A stretch of DNA of 64,000 nucleotides from Desulfatiglans anilini DSM 4660 (GTDB lineage: Bacteria; Desulfobacterota; DSM-4660; Desulfatiglandales; Desulfatiglandaceae). The notes under the pieces were generated by a model. It was not told where the DNA came from, searched no databases, and saw only the letters and a list, made by a program, of their open reading frames with translations. Where the stretch lies: positions 1 to 64,000 of the forward strand of contig NZ_AULM01000004.1 of the NCBI RefSeq assembly GCF_000422285.1. Direction: 5' to 3'. The number at the start of each line of letters is the position of its first letter. Positions within the stretch are counted from its first letter, which is position 1. Positions 7,382-11,085 of this stretch are shown here, in pieces. Position numbers and translations under genes: made by a program.

Positions 7382-10300
7382 TCAACCGTCCTTTCGCTGC
7401 AGACTCACCATGAAGGCCTTGGTCTCCGGGATGCGGGTGTTCGGATCCCCGGCCGACGGGGTGAGGAGGTTGGCGCTGTCTCCGCCGGCATGGGGCCAGA
7501 GCCAGCCATAGTGCCAGGGCAGCCCCACCACATGGACCTCGGCGCCGTTCACCCTGAACGGCCGGAGGCGCGAGGTCACCATCGCGACGGCCTCGAGCGA
7601 GCCGCGGGCCGAGGCCACCACCACTTTTTCCCCATTGCGGATGCCCTTTTCCCGGGCGAGTTCCCGGCTCATCTCGACGAACATCTGCGGCTCGGCCTCG
7701 AGGAGCCAGGGCATGGAGCGGCTCATGGCGCCGCTCTGCCAGTGCTCGGCCACCCGGCAGGTGGTGGCGACGATCGGGAAGCGCGGATCGGCGGCCGGCC
7801 GCCGCAGCCCGCCGAAATCGCAGGCGCGCAGAAGAGGGTTCACCTGCTGAGTGTTTAGCAGGTTGGCCGCGGCCGGTCCTTCGACCGGTTCATAGTGCTC
7901 GGGAAAGGGCCCGTCCAGCAATCCGGGGCCGAAGATGCCCCCAAGGCCATCGGCGCGCATGATGAACGGGTAGCGGCTGTCGGCACGCGACGACCCGTCG
8001 GGGTTCTGCATGGGAAACCAGCCGCCGTCCGGCACATCCCCCTCCCATTGATTGGCGACGTAGCGGCCCCCTTCACTCGCCCCGGCAAACCGGATGACGG
8101 GCCGCTGCCGGTCCCAGGGGCGGCCCTGCAGGTCAACGGCGGCGCGGTTGTAAAGGATCCGCCGGTTCATGGGCCAGGACCAGGCCCACTGCGGATAGAG
8201 GCCGATGCCGGTTGGGTCTTCCCTGCCGCGGCGGGCCATCTGGTTGCCGTCGGCGTTGTAGCTCTGGCAGTAGAGCCAGTTGCCGCTTGCCGTCGAGCCG
8301 TCCTCCTGGAGGAGTACGAAGGAGGGCACCGGGTCGCCCTTTTGAAAGGCCTCGCCCTGGATCGTTGCATCGCTGGTGAAACAGCCGTTGATGCCGCGCG
8401 CCACCTTGTGGGCATCGAAACGGCCGTCGGTCCGGTAATCCCAGGCGAGATGGGTGATGGGCTCGGGGAAGACGCCGCCCTCGCTTTGGTAGAGCGCACG
8501 GACAGCGGCGAAGAGCTCGGTCAGGATATCCCCGTCGCTGCGGGCCTCTCCGGGCGGCTCCTGGGCCTTCCAGCGCCACTGGGCCCAGCGGCCGCTGTTG
8601 GTGATGGACCCCTCCTTCTCCATCGAGGCCGCGCAGGGGAGCAGAAACACCTCGGTTCGAATGGTGCGCGGGTCCATACCCGGACCTTTCCAGAAGGCGG
8701 CGGTCTCGGTCTCGAAGAGATTCGCCGACACCATCCAATCGAGCTTGGCCATGGCCGCGCGGGTGCGGCCGGCATCCGCCCCGCTGCAGGCCGGGTTCTG
8801 GCCCCAGGCAAAGAACCCGCGGAGTTCTCCCCGGTCCATGGCGTCGAAGAGGTCGAGCCAGGTGTATGTCCGGTTGTCGGCGAGCTTCGGAAGCCAGGCA
8901 TAGCAGAAGCCGTTTTCGGGGGTGGCCGCCTCGCCGAAGAGGGCCTTCAGGAAGCTGACCACGTATTTCGGGCGGTTTTGCCACCAGTTGGCGCTGAGGG
9001 GATCGGAGGAGGACGGCGTGTTCTCCTTCAGGTAGTCGGAGAGGGTCGCCATGGTGGCCCTGGGGACCGGAAGGTATCCCGGCCAGTCGCCATAGAGCAG
9101 CCCGTGGTCCGTGGAACCCTGCACGTTCGACTCCCCGCGCAGGGCGTTCACCCCGCCGCCTGCCATCCCCATGTTGCCGAGGAGGAGCTGGATGATCGAC
9201 ATGGCGCGGATGTTCTGGACCCCCACCGTGTGCTGGGTCCAGCCCATGGCATAGAGGATGGTGCCGGCCCGGTCCGGCCTGCCGGTGGCGGAAACGCATT
9301 CGTAGACGCGGAGCAGATCCTCTCGGGGGGTACCGGTGACGGCGCTCACCTTCTCGGGCGTGTAGCGCGCGAAATGGGTCTTCAGGAGCTGGAAGACGGT
9401 GCGCGGATGGGATAACGAAGGGTCCTTCCGGACGGCGCCGCCCGCGTCCGTCTCGTAGGCCCAGAAGCTCCGGTCGTAGGCGCGGGCGCGGGGGTCGAAG
9501 CCGCTGAAAAGGCCGTCGTGGAACGCGAACTTTTCGCTGACGAGGCAGGCGGCATTCGTGTAGTGGGCGACGTAATCCCGGAAGCAGCGGTTTTCGGAAA
9601 GGATGAAGCGGATCATGCCGCCGAGGAAGGCGATGTCGGTCCCGGGGCGGAGCGGGGCGTAGATGTCCGCCTTGCTGGAGGTCCTGGTGAAGCGCGGGTC
9701 CACGTGGATCACCGTGGCGCCCCGTTCGCGCGCGGCCTCGACCCATTTGAAGGCGACGGGATGGTTTTCGGCCGGATTGCTCCCCATGATGAGGATGCAA
9801 TCGCTGTTGCGGATGTCGATCCAGTGGTTCGTCATGGCGCCTCGTCCGAACGACTCTGCCAGAGCCGTCACCGTGGCGCTGTGTCAGATTCGGGCCTGGT
9901 GCTCGATGTAGACCAGGCCGAGGGCGCGGAGCATGGCCTGGTAGATCCAGCACTCCTCGTTGTCGAGCGCGGCGCTGCCGACCGAGGCGATCGTGGCGCA
10001 GCGGTTCACGGTCCAGCCGTCGGGGTCGACCGATTCGAAGCCGTCGTCGCGGGTCTTCTTGATCCGCCGGGCGATCGTGGAGAGCGCCCAGTCCCAGTCT
10101 TTCGTCTCCCAGTGGTCGCTGCAGGGCGCCCGATAAAGGACGCGGGTCAGGCGGCGCTCGTTCGCGGCCAACTGGTCGAGGGCGGCGCCTTTCGCGCAGA
10201 GCGCGCCCGCGTTGATCGGGTGTTCGGGGTCCCCTTCGGTGTAGACCACCCGGCCGGTTTGAGGATCCGTGTGGCAGATCACCCCGCAGCCAACGGCGCA

Positions 10301-10465
10301 AAAGGGGCAGATGCTGAAGGTCGCCACCGTTCCCGCAGTCCGGTCGGGCCAGTCGGCGGAGGCGGATGCGGGCTGCTGCGAACCCAAGGCCTTGCGGCCG
10401 CCCATCGCCACTCCAGCCGCCACAGTCCCGCTCAACTGCAGAAACTTGCGTCGCGTTACGTCCAT
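7382..10465 (-). CDS. formate dehydrogenase catalytic (alpha) subunit, selenocysteine- and TAT-dependent
   Basis: A 1027-residue molybdopterin (bis-MGD, Mo or W) enzyme oxidising formate to CO2 in the periplasm. The twin-arginine motif RRKFLQL is at residues 5-11. The [4Fe-4S] cysteines are 53, 56, 60 and 90. The frame is broken by a single TGA (9884-9886), codon 194, in the context EHQARI-U-HSATV followed by AESFGRGAMTNHW. That is exactly where FdnG-type enzymes carry active-site selenocysteine, and a SECIS-like hairpin follows. Both halves are otherwise intact and the total length matches the family, so this is one gene and not a pseudogene. It is co-transcribed with the beta subunit. Selenocysteine machinery must be encoded elsewhere. 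Confidence 0.95.
9849..9869 (-). promoter_or_regulatory. bacterial SECIS hairpin for UGA recoding
   Basis: Fourteen bases after the TGA, on the coding strand, GACGGCTCT pairs with AGAGTCGTT (nine pairs including G-U wobbles) around a GGC loop. Distance and apical G residues fit bacterial SECIS elements recognised by SelB. It lies inside the coding region, as expected. Confidence 0.7.
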
Positions 10466-10724: not shown

Positions 10725-10756
10725 AAAAAGGGTTCAAGCACATAGCCCAAACCCTT
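10725..10756 (-). terminator. Rho-independent terminator of tRNA-Leu
   Basis: On the minus strand AAGGGTT pairs with AACCCTT and is followed by a T-rich run, just downstream of the tRNA-Leu CCA end. Confidence 0.75.
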
Positions 10757-10764
10757 GAGTCTAC

Positions 10765-10852
10765 TGGTGCCGGAGGTCGGAATCGAACCGACACGGACGG
10801 GAAGTCCACTGGATTTTGAGTCCAGCGCGTCTACCAGTTTCACCACTCCGGC
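10765..10852 (-). tRNA. tRNA-Leu (anticodon CAA)
   Basis: 88 nt including an encoded CCA. The seven-base anticodon loop CTCAAAA is flanked by CTGGA and TCCAG, giving anticodon CAA (codon UUG). A long variable arm typical of class II tRNA-Leu is present, as are the GGTTCGATTCC T-arm and a paired GCCGGAG/CTCCGGC acceptor stem. Confidence 0.97.
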
Positions 10853-10872: not shown

Positions 10873-10902
10873 ATTATAGGGAAAATGCCCCCGGCCTGTC
10901 AA
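10873..10902 (-). promoter_or_regulatory. consensus sigma-70 promoter of tRNA-Leu
   Basis: On the minus strand the sequence reads TTGACA, 18 bases, TATAAT: a full match to both hexamers. The tRNA 5' end lies about 20 bases downstream of the -10. The -35 box is inside the palindrome at 10893-10919. Confidence 0.85.
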
Positions 10903-10919
10903 TATGATATTGACAGGCC
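10893..10919. repeat. 27-bp perfect palindrome carrying both -35 boxes
   Basis: GGCCTGTCAATAT and its exact reverse complement flank one central G. Each arm contains one TTGACA, pointing outward to tRNA-Leu (minus) and tRNA-Ala (plus). Confidence 0.9.
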
Positions 10920-10939
10920 TTTGCGGCCTTTGCTATAGT
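10910..10939 (+). promoter_or_regulatory. sigma-70 promoter of tRNA-Ala
   Basis: TTGACA at 10910-10915, an 18-base spacer, TATAGT at 10934-10939, and the tRNA begins at 10953. It mirrors the promoter of tRNA-Leu across the palindrome centre. Confidence 0.85.
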
Positions 10940-10952
10940 CTTTCAATCCTTT

Positions 10953-11028
10953 GGGGCTGTAGCTCAGTTGGGAGAGCGCATGACTGGCAGTCATGAGGTC
11001 GTCGGTTCGATCCCGATCAGCTCCACCA
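10953..11028 (+). tRNA. tRNA-Ala (anticodon GGC)
   Basis: 76 nt including CCA. The anticodon loop CTGGCAG lies between CATGA and TCATG, giving GGC. Acceptor GGGGCTG pairs with CAGCTCC and contains the G3-U70 pair that identifies tRNA-Ala. Confidence 0.97.
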
Positions 11029-11044
11029 GAAGAAGATAATTATT

Positions 11045-11085
11045 AGAGGGGCTTACCGGTGTGCTGGGAGCCCCTCTCGCTTTTC
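11045..11085 (+). terminator. Rho-independent terminator of tRNA-Ala
   Basis: AGAGGGGCT and AGCCCCTCT form a perfect nine-pair stem followed by CGCTTTTC, sixteen bases after the tRNA. Confidence 0.8.

Follow-up and report, generated by a model that had tools for sequence, protein, structure and literature searches.

A perfect palindrome between divergent tRNA-Leu(CAA) and tRNA-Ala(GGC) genes of Desulfatiglans anilini as a probable compact pair of promoters

In Desulfatiglans anilini DSM 4660, the tRNA-Leu(CAA) and tRNA-Ala(GGC) genes are transcribed away from each other, and the region between them carries a perfect palindrome. Does this symmetry serve to switch between the two genes, or does it arise where two promoters are packed back to back? 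We analysed the first 64,000 nucleotides of contig NZ_AULM01000004.1, called here the window, together with related genomes. The first-pass annotation of this DNA had described a 27-bp palindrome with TTGACA on both strands, and direct reading of the sequence showed that this description was correct to the base. The promoters that it had placed there, TTGACA-18-TATAAT toward tRNA-Leu and TTGACA-18-TATAGT toward tRNA-Ala, were borne out by the sequence and by a promoter scan. The distance of 7 bp between the two -35 boxes was also right, and the heptamer TATGATA lies between them (Table 1).

The palindrome is built of two 13-bp arms flanking a single unpaired centre base. An arm of 13 bp is the longest of any perfect palindrome of the window, where the next arms are 10 and 9, and the longest arm in 60 first-order Markov copies of 64 kb was 7 to 11, never 13. 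The palindromic arrangement is not a matter of chance. The promoter scan gave 12 of 12 consensus matches for the tRNA-Leu side on the minus strand and 11 of 12 for the tRNA-Ala side on the plus strand, with TG ahead of the -10 box on the latter and an 18-bp spacer on both. From outer -10 to outer -10 the promoters span 67 bp. In the window and in the relatives, -35 and -10 boxes at 16–19 bp are recognisable on both strands, and the divergent genes sit directly downstream of both predicted promoters. Reading the palindrome as an RNA hairpin was rejected by inference, because it lies upstream of both predicted transcription starts. The terminator candidate of tRNA-Ala had no match in the terminator scan, whose loop limit was 8.

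Table 1. Features of the region between and around the two tRNA genes, in positions of the window; promoter boxes are predictions
Feature	Position	Strand	Basis
Intrinsic-terminator-like hairpin and T run, 3' of tRNA-Leu	10728..10756	-	Consensus match only; 2 such sites against 1.8 expected (shuffles)
tRNA-Leu (anticodon CAA)	10765..10852	-	ARAGORN; also a match to RF00005
-10 box TATAAT of the tRNA-Leu promoter, 18-bp spacer, without TG extension	10873..10878 (ATTATA on +)	-	Direct reading, promoter scan; position kept in relatives
Perfect palindrome GGCCTGTCAATATGATATTGACAGGCC, 27 bp, centre 10906	10893..10919	.	Direct reading, palindrome search
-35 box TTGACA of the tRNA-Leu promoter	10897..10902 (TGTCAA on +)	-	Promoter scan, relatives
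Conserved 19-bp core TGTCAATATGATATTGACA, two -35 boxes and the shared heptamer	10897..10915	.	Relatives; unique in own genome within 2 mismatches
Self-complementary heptamer TATGATA, directly upstream of both -35 boxes	10903..10909	.	Putative shared upstream promoter sequence
-35 box TTGACA of the tRNA-Ala promoter	10910..10915	+	Promoter scan, relatives
-10 box TATAGT of the tRNA-Ala promoter, TG-extended, 18-bp spacer	10934..10939	+	Direct reading, promoter scan
tRNA-Ala (anticodon GGC)	10953..11028	+	ARAGORN
Possible terminator 3' of tRNA-Ala: inverted repeat AGAGGGGCT / AGCCCCTCT, 15-base loop, then CGCTTTT	11045..11077	+	Read by eye

We consider it probable that the region holds two divergent housekeeping promoters of the sigma70 type in a compact arrangement, overlapping at the self-complementary heptamer upstream of both -35 boxes. 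The tRNA-Leu promoter would have near-consensus boxes separated by 18 bp, and the tRNA-Ala promoter a consensus -35 with a -10 that is weaker but TG-extended in relatives. Each promoter would use its own half of the palindrome, and the heptamer, TAT-S-ATA, would be an upstream sequence (-36 to -42 of both promoters) serving both. On this account the region is palindromic because the -35 boxes stand back to back, 7 bp apart, with a self-complementary heptamer between them. RNA polymerase presumably starts at these predicted promoters. Among open-access papers, judged by titles and the beginnings of abstracts, we found nothing on the promoters of this tRNA pair.

To compare the region among relatives, we used a DNA search with the tRNA pair (61 genomes, among the matches listed, and then 85 genomes of the class, the same set as the order). 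Named genomes were additionally scanned for the core, and the pair regions were confirmed by ARAGORN. This gave 34 confirmed regions, which span two families (f1 and f2) where the family is known; one identical region is common to genomes G001 and G004. In 33 of the 34, the region includes a locus found by tRNA similarity and not by the palindrome alone. Locus L076 was found only through the palindrome scan, and its order was assumed from likeness. Locus L126, which has lost the heptamer, was kept out of this set because its tRNA-Leu was missed by ARAGORN. Each count is a number of distinct regions, taken without a species tree, and does not stand for a number of independent events. In many genomes of these two families no contiguous pair was found at the E-value of the search, owing to loss, divergence or contig breaks.

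It turned out that the -35 boxes stand back to back in all 35 distinct divergent copies, with a gap of 5–8 bp. TTGAC is present on both strands in 34 of 34 confirmed regions, and the gap is 7 bp in 31 of them, 6 in two and 8 in one; it is 5 in L126. Where the gap is 7 (31 regions), every letter of TGTCAATA...TATTGACA is conserved in 30 or 31 regions, as is the TA adjoining each -35 box, and the centre of the heptamer is G or C in 30. Outside the core, most bases in these regions are near-random. The exceptions are the -10 boxes, an A-rich run next to the Leu -10 and, with a weak preference, the two positions that follow the Ala -35. The inner symmetry is perfect in 23 of the 34 regions. GGCC on both flanks, on which the length of 27 bp is based, is found in this genome alone among the 34. 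Thus, the near-invariant part is the 19-bp core TGTCAATATNATATTGACA, and the outer arms vary. With the -10 box taken as the script's best score over spacers of 16–19, which favours TG and consensus letters, the Leu side has an 18-bp spacer in 30 of 34 regions, TATAAT in 21 and a TG extension in one. By the same scoring, the -10 of the Ala side is weaker and variable; 31 of 34 regions have the TG extension there, and the spacer is 17 in 16 regions and 18 in 16. The halves of the palindrome thus lead to two differently built promoters, and therefore two promoters fit better than one symmetrical operator.

We also assessed how specific the core is. With the window's own genome left out, the pattern was found in 46 stretches in 84,980 species genomes, and 20 of these lie between tRNA-Leu(CAA) and tRNA-Ala(GGC). 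Each of the 20 comes from a record labelled Deltaproteobacteria, Desulfobacterales, Desulfobacteraceae or Thermodesulfobacteriota. No tRNA lies within 400 bp of the remaining 26, which are scattered over many groups, with two in Desulfobacteraceae or Desulfobacterales (L061 and L066). The centre is G or C in 20 of 20 tRNA-linked copies and in 9 of 26 elsewhere, where related genomes are not independent. Of 395 genomes taken from the phylum, 17 belong to the order; TGTCAATANNNTATTGACA is present in 10 of these and in 1 of the 378 others. A search of the own genome within 2 mismatches of the core found no further site, and a regulon of like sites in this genome was rejected. Some relatives have several extra 2-mismatch sites among the matches listed, and a backwards control pattern yields such matches too.

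In most of the 85 genomes of the order, the looser pattern TGTCAAN{4,10}TTGACA outnumbers its reversed control. The idea that every back-to-back TTGACA pair is a promoter of this kind was rejected on the basis of twelve stretches with a spacer of 4, of which four (the TGTCAAGGGTTTGACA type) lie within a long open frame and four (the TGTCAAGATCTTGACA type) within a longer inverted repeat. The latter was seen in family f4 (L215–L218, around position 800; genomes G067, G054, G060 and G046), where a perfect TGTCAAGATCTTGACA is enclosed in the inverted repeat GAGGCAGATGTCAAGATCTTGACATCTGCCTC; by its sequence this looks like a terminator or operator. The own genome has four other back-to-back sites, and only L181 has 4 of 6 matches to a -10 box on both sides. 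There, around position 1500 (C4:225484-225502), a second back-to-back TTGACA pair has a 7-bp gap, with the -10-like boxes TTTAAA and TAGAAA (4 of 6 each) 17 bp away on both sides.

Genes that are not paired show which part of the palindrome goes with a single promoter. We collected 27 distinct upstream regions of tRNA-Leu(CAA) or tRNA-Ala(GGC) from families of the order in which the genes lie apart, and from G008 and G078, which belong to pair-bearing families. L142 (another tRNA-Ala), L214 (no tRNA-Ala), three duplicates and three paired loci were omitted. In the set, L146 has no TTGAC, L211 is cut short, and L211 and L212 come from the same genome. The gene's own TTGACA is kept in 25 of the 27 regions. 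TGTCAA at the position of the partner's -35 box was found in 0 of 25 testable regions, and in 0 of 26 did the 40 bp preceding the -35 box contain GTCAA. TA stands directly ahead of TTGAC in 19 of 26 regions. Among the other tRNA promoters of the window's genome, 19 have a best -35 that begins with TTGAC, and 0 of these 19 show the TA. Therefore, the half-element TATTGACA goes with a single promoter, and the TA extension is not this genome's general style of tRNA promoter. Separated tRNA-Leu genes match at most 2 of 6 letters of the partner's arm (12 tested); separated tRNA-Ala genes match 4 of 6 letters in 3 of 13 cases and 3 of 6 in 5 of 13. Judged from these letters, the partial likeness may be decay after separation, or it could be residual function.

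Outside the order the genes can be paired without the fused core. In 19 of 19 pairs examined there, taken from the best-listed matches and a hand-picked set and so not a census, the divergent arrangement is the same. Their -35 boxes lie 8–129 bp apart, none closer than 8, in a measure that depends on the script's choice of the GTCAA/TTGAC pair by the best -10 score, several of these -10 boxes being weak. The Ala -35 is partly changed (TTGACT or TTGACG) in four of these pairs and the Leu -35 in two. In L183, where the Leu -35 half is doubled (TGTCAAGAAAAATA twice in tandem, then TGTCAAGAAAAATGTA), the nearer repeat would make the gap 10 instead of 38. The intergenic region of L191 holds a tRNA-like fragment, GGGGCTGTAGCTCAGCTGGGAGAGCG..., between the two tRNA genes, which from its sequence is perhaps a degenerate tRNA-Ala. 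Gaps of 8–129 bp make the divergent pair independent of the fused palindrome, and the pair is probably the older of the two. The expectation in the first-pass annotation that the palindrome should be conserved together with the gene pair thus held inside the order (35 copies) and failed outside it, where the gap in the 19 pairs examined is 8–129 bp.

The neighbourhood of the pair was compared by the proteins encoded in the flanks of 51 loci, some of which are duplicate views of one region. The flanks were mostly 1.5 kb, and the 12 largest clusters were inspected. No gene is common to all flanks of these 51 loci. The three largest clusters are the tRNA region itself. Representatives of six clusters off the tRNAs were scanned. 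The largest of the six is a metallo-beta-lactamase-fold protein at 12 loci, followed by a sigma54-type response regulator at 10; the other four have 5 loci each, namely a cyclase-domain protein, an integrase and two proteins that match no Pfam family. A regulator gene shared by most pair copies was not found in the flanks, mostly of 1.5 kb, and a distant gene is possible; the sigma54-type response regulator adjoins only a minority of copies. tRNA genes commonly serve as integration sites, and a phage-type integrase gene adjoins the pair in a few relatives (L015, 329-1483, in the cluster of 5 loci). On one side of the pair, the window encodes a small protein with no Pfam match; on the other, it encodes a molybdopterin oxidoreductase (7382-10465, minus strand), which we take to be formate-dehydrogenase-like. 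Its gene has one in-frame TGA at 9884-9886, followed by HSATVTALAESFGRGAMTNHW. From this context the TGA is probably a selenocysteine codon and does not mark a broken gene.

These observations bear on what the palindrome could do besides holding two promoters. One proposal of the first-pass annotation was that a single factor on the palindrome controls both tRNAs. Such a factor would be a dimeric regulator whose site extends over both -35 boxes, with the promoter boxes embedded in that site. The symmetry beyond the -35 boxes, the conserved heptamer and the preference for G or C at the centre of the pair-linked copies (among relatives that are not independent) agree with such a site, as do a weak covariation of the flanks, the partial likeness of some separated tRNA-Ala genes to the distal arm, and the length of the palindrome, 27 bp without a mismatch here and 31 bp with one inner mismatch in L008. 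However, an operator should be whole wherever a regulated gene occurs, and at the 25 testable separated genes it is only the proximal arm that is intact. The spacing of the half-sites, 7 bp in 31 of 35 regions, drifts to 5 (one), 6 (two) and 8 (one) in near relatives and to 8–129 bp in the pairs examined outside the order, which would be unusual for a dimer site. The single copy within 2 mismatches in the window's genome and the lack of a regulator gene common to most of the mainly 1.5-kb flanks also tend to speak against it. On sequence grounds, separated genes and wide gaps in the phylum argue against an obligatory operator, and we consider control of both tRNAs by one factor unlikely. The other proposal was that polymerase at one promoter blocks the other across the 7-bp gap, so that the tRNAs are made alternately; a set ratio between them would go with this. 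The gap is indeed short, and mostly 7 bp, in near relatives. Passages of PMC4207663 describe polymerase competition at overlapping divergent promoters. At bidirectional promoters of E. coli, as described in parts of PMC12825309, competition appears only once transcription is strong on one side, and five tested promoters showed little of it at basal activity. Moreover, the gap takes every value from 5 to 8 in near relatives and reaches 129 bp in other families, and the two genes also occur apart. From the -10 positions the starts would be about 80 bp apart, and therefore exclusion is not certain. By analogy, alternating firing may be physically possible. As the conserved purpose of the arrangement, mutual exclusion is argued against by the separated genes and the gaps of 8–129 bp in the 19 outside pairs, at the level of sequence comparison; alternation as the reason for the layout is thus unsupported, and we regard it as improbable.

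The symmetry might also be partly a by-product of mutation: in replication, template switching at a near-palindrome would rewrite one arm to match the other and invert the centre. Such mutation at quasipalindromes is known (PMC7202029 and others). The centre varies within genera: in g46 it is G in L122 and L060 and C in L123 and L073, and in g2 it is G in L021 and C in L145 and L038. The outer arms differ by genome and match each other in some (GGCC/GGCC here, ATATCA/TGATAT in L008). However, G to C is one point mutation as well, the covariation is weak and limited to two positions, and template switching alone leaves the avoidance of A or T at the centre unexplained. This origin of the symmetry seems to us very improbable. 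A further reading takes the 19-bp core as one indivisible module that ties tRNA-Leu(CAA) output to tRNA-Ala(GGC). The shared TAT-S-ATA would perhaps be gripped by alpha C-terminal domains or another protein, imposing strict alternation or co-recruitment, and the module would have arisen in a common ancestor of the two families and then been held nearly letter for letter. We treat this reading as rather doubtful.

The compact pair of divergent promoters remains the reading that we prefer, and two polymerases at it would presumably merely interfere, rather than form a regulatory switch. It leaves a residue. Judging from the alignment, the heptamer and its G/C centre are conserved beyond what the -35 boxes alone would need. 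At the first two flanking positions, the two sides covary weakly in a complementary manner (P of about 0.01 each, in a shuffle that ignores relatedness), a signal that is absent at the next four and is not predicted by two independent promoters. Conservation of the heptamer and covariation of the flanks could reflect a shared upstream contact, another binding protein or template switching at the palindrome; we infer the first of these, a heptamer acting as a shared upstream element.

The order and its phylum offer a natural series: genes apart, genes paired with a wide gap, and genes paired with the fused core. This series lets one ask what distance between strong divergent promoters is still tolerated, and whether closeness is ever turned into coupling by selection. 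For tRNA supply, the fused core could mean one control point for two tRNAs.

Among known systems, PR and PRM of phage lambda are back-to-back sigma70 promoters with starts about 80 bp apart and known polymerase interference, and the layout described here is similar, with the same predicted distance between starts. In lambda, operators and repressors lie between the promoters, and the two -35 boxes are not a perfect palindrome. In Pc/Pr of pLS20, two opposed sigmaA/sigma70 promoters likewise overlap, and polymerase at one is held, in passages of PMC4207663, to hinder the other. That system has one strong and one weak promoter and the regulator Rco with its operators (PMC4207663), whereas the present pair appears to consist of two strong promoters and faces tRNA genes, and its flanks, mostly of 1.5 kb, yielded no regulator. 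In the bidirectional promoters of E. coli (Warman et al., PMC12825309), DNA symmetry likewise lets one short sequence drive both directions. According to parts of that article, they share a pseudo-symmetrical -10, and the starts are most often 18 bp apart, with 10 and 23 also common. In contrast, the symmetry described here lies in the -35 boxes, the -10 boxes form the ends of the 67-bp span instead of one -10 serving both directions with starts 10–23 bp apart, and the starts would be about 80 bp from each other. Beside these systems, and with the conservation of its heptamer unexplained, the locus looks mainly like a case of conserved promoter packing and not like a novel type of switch.
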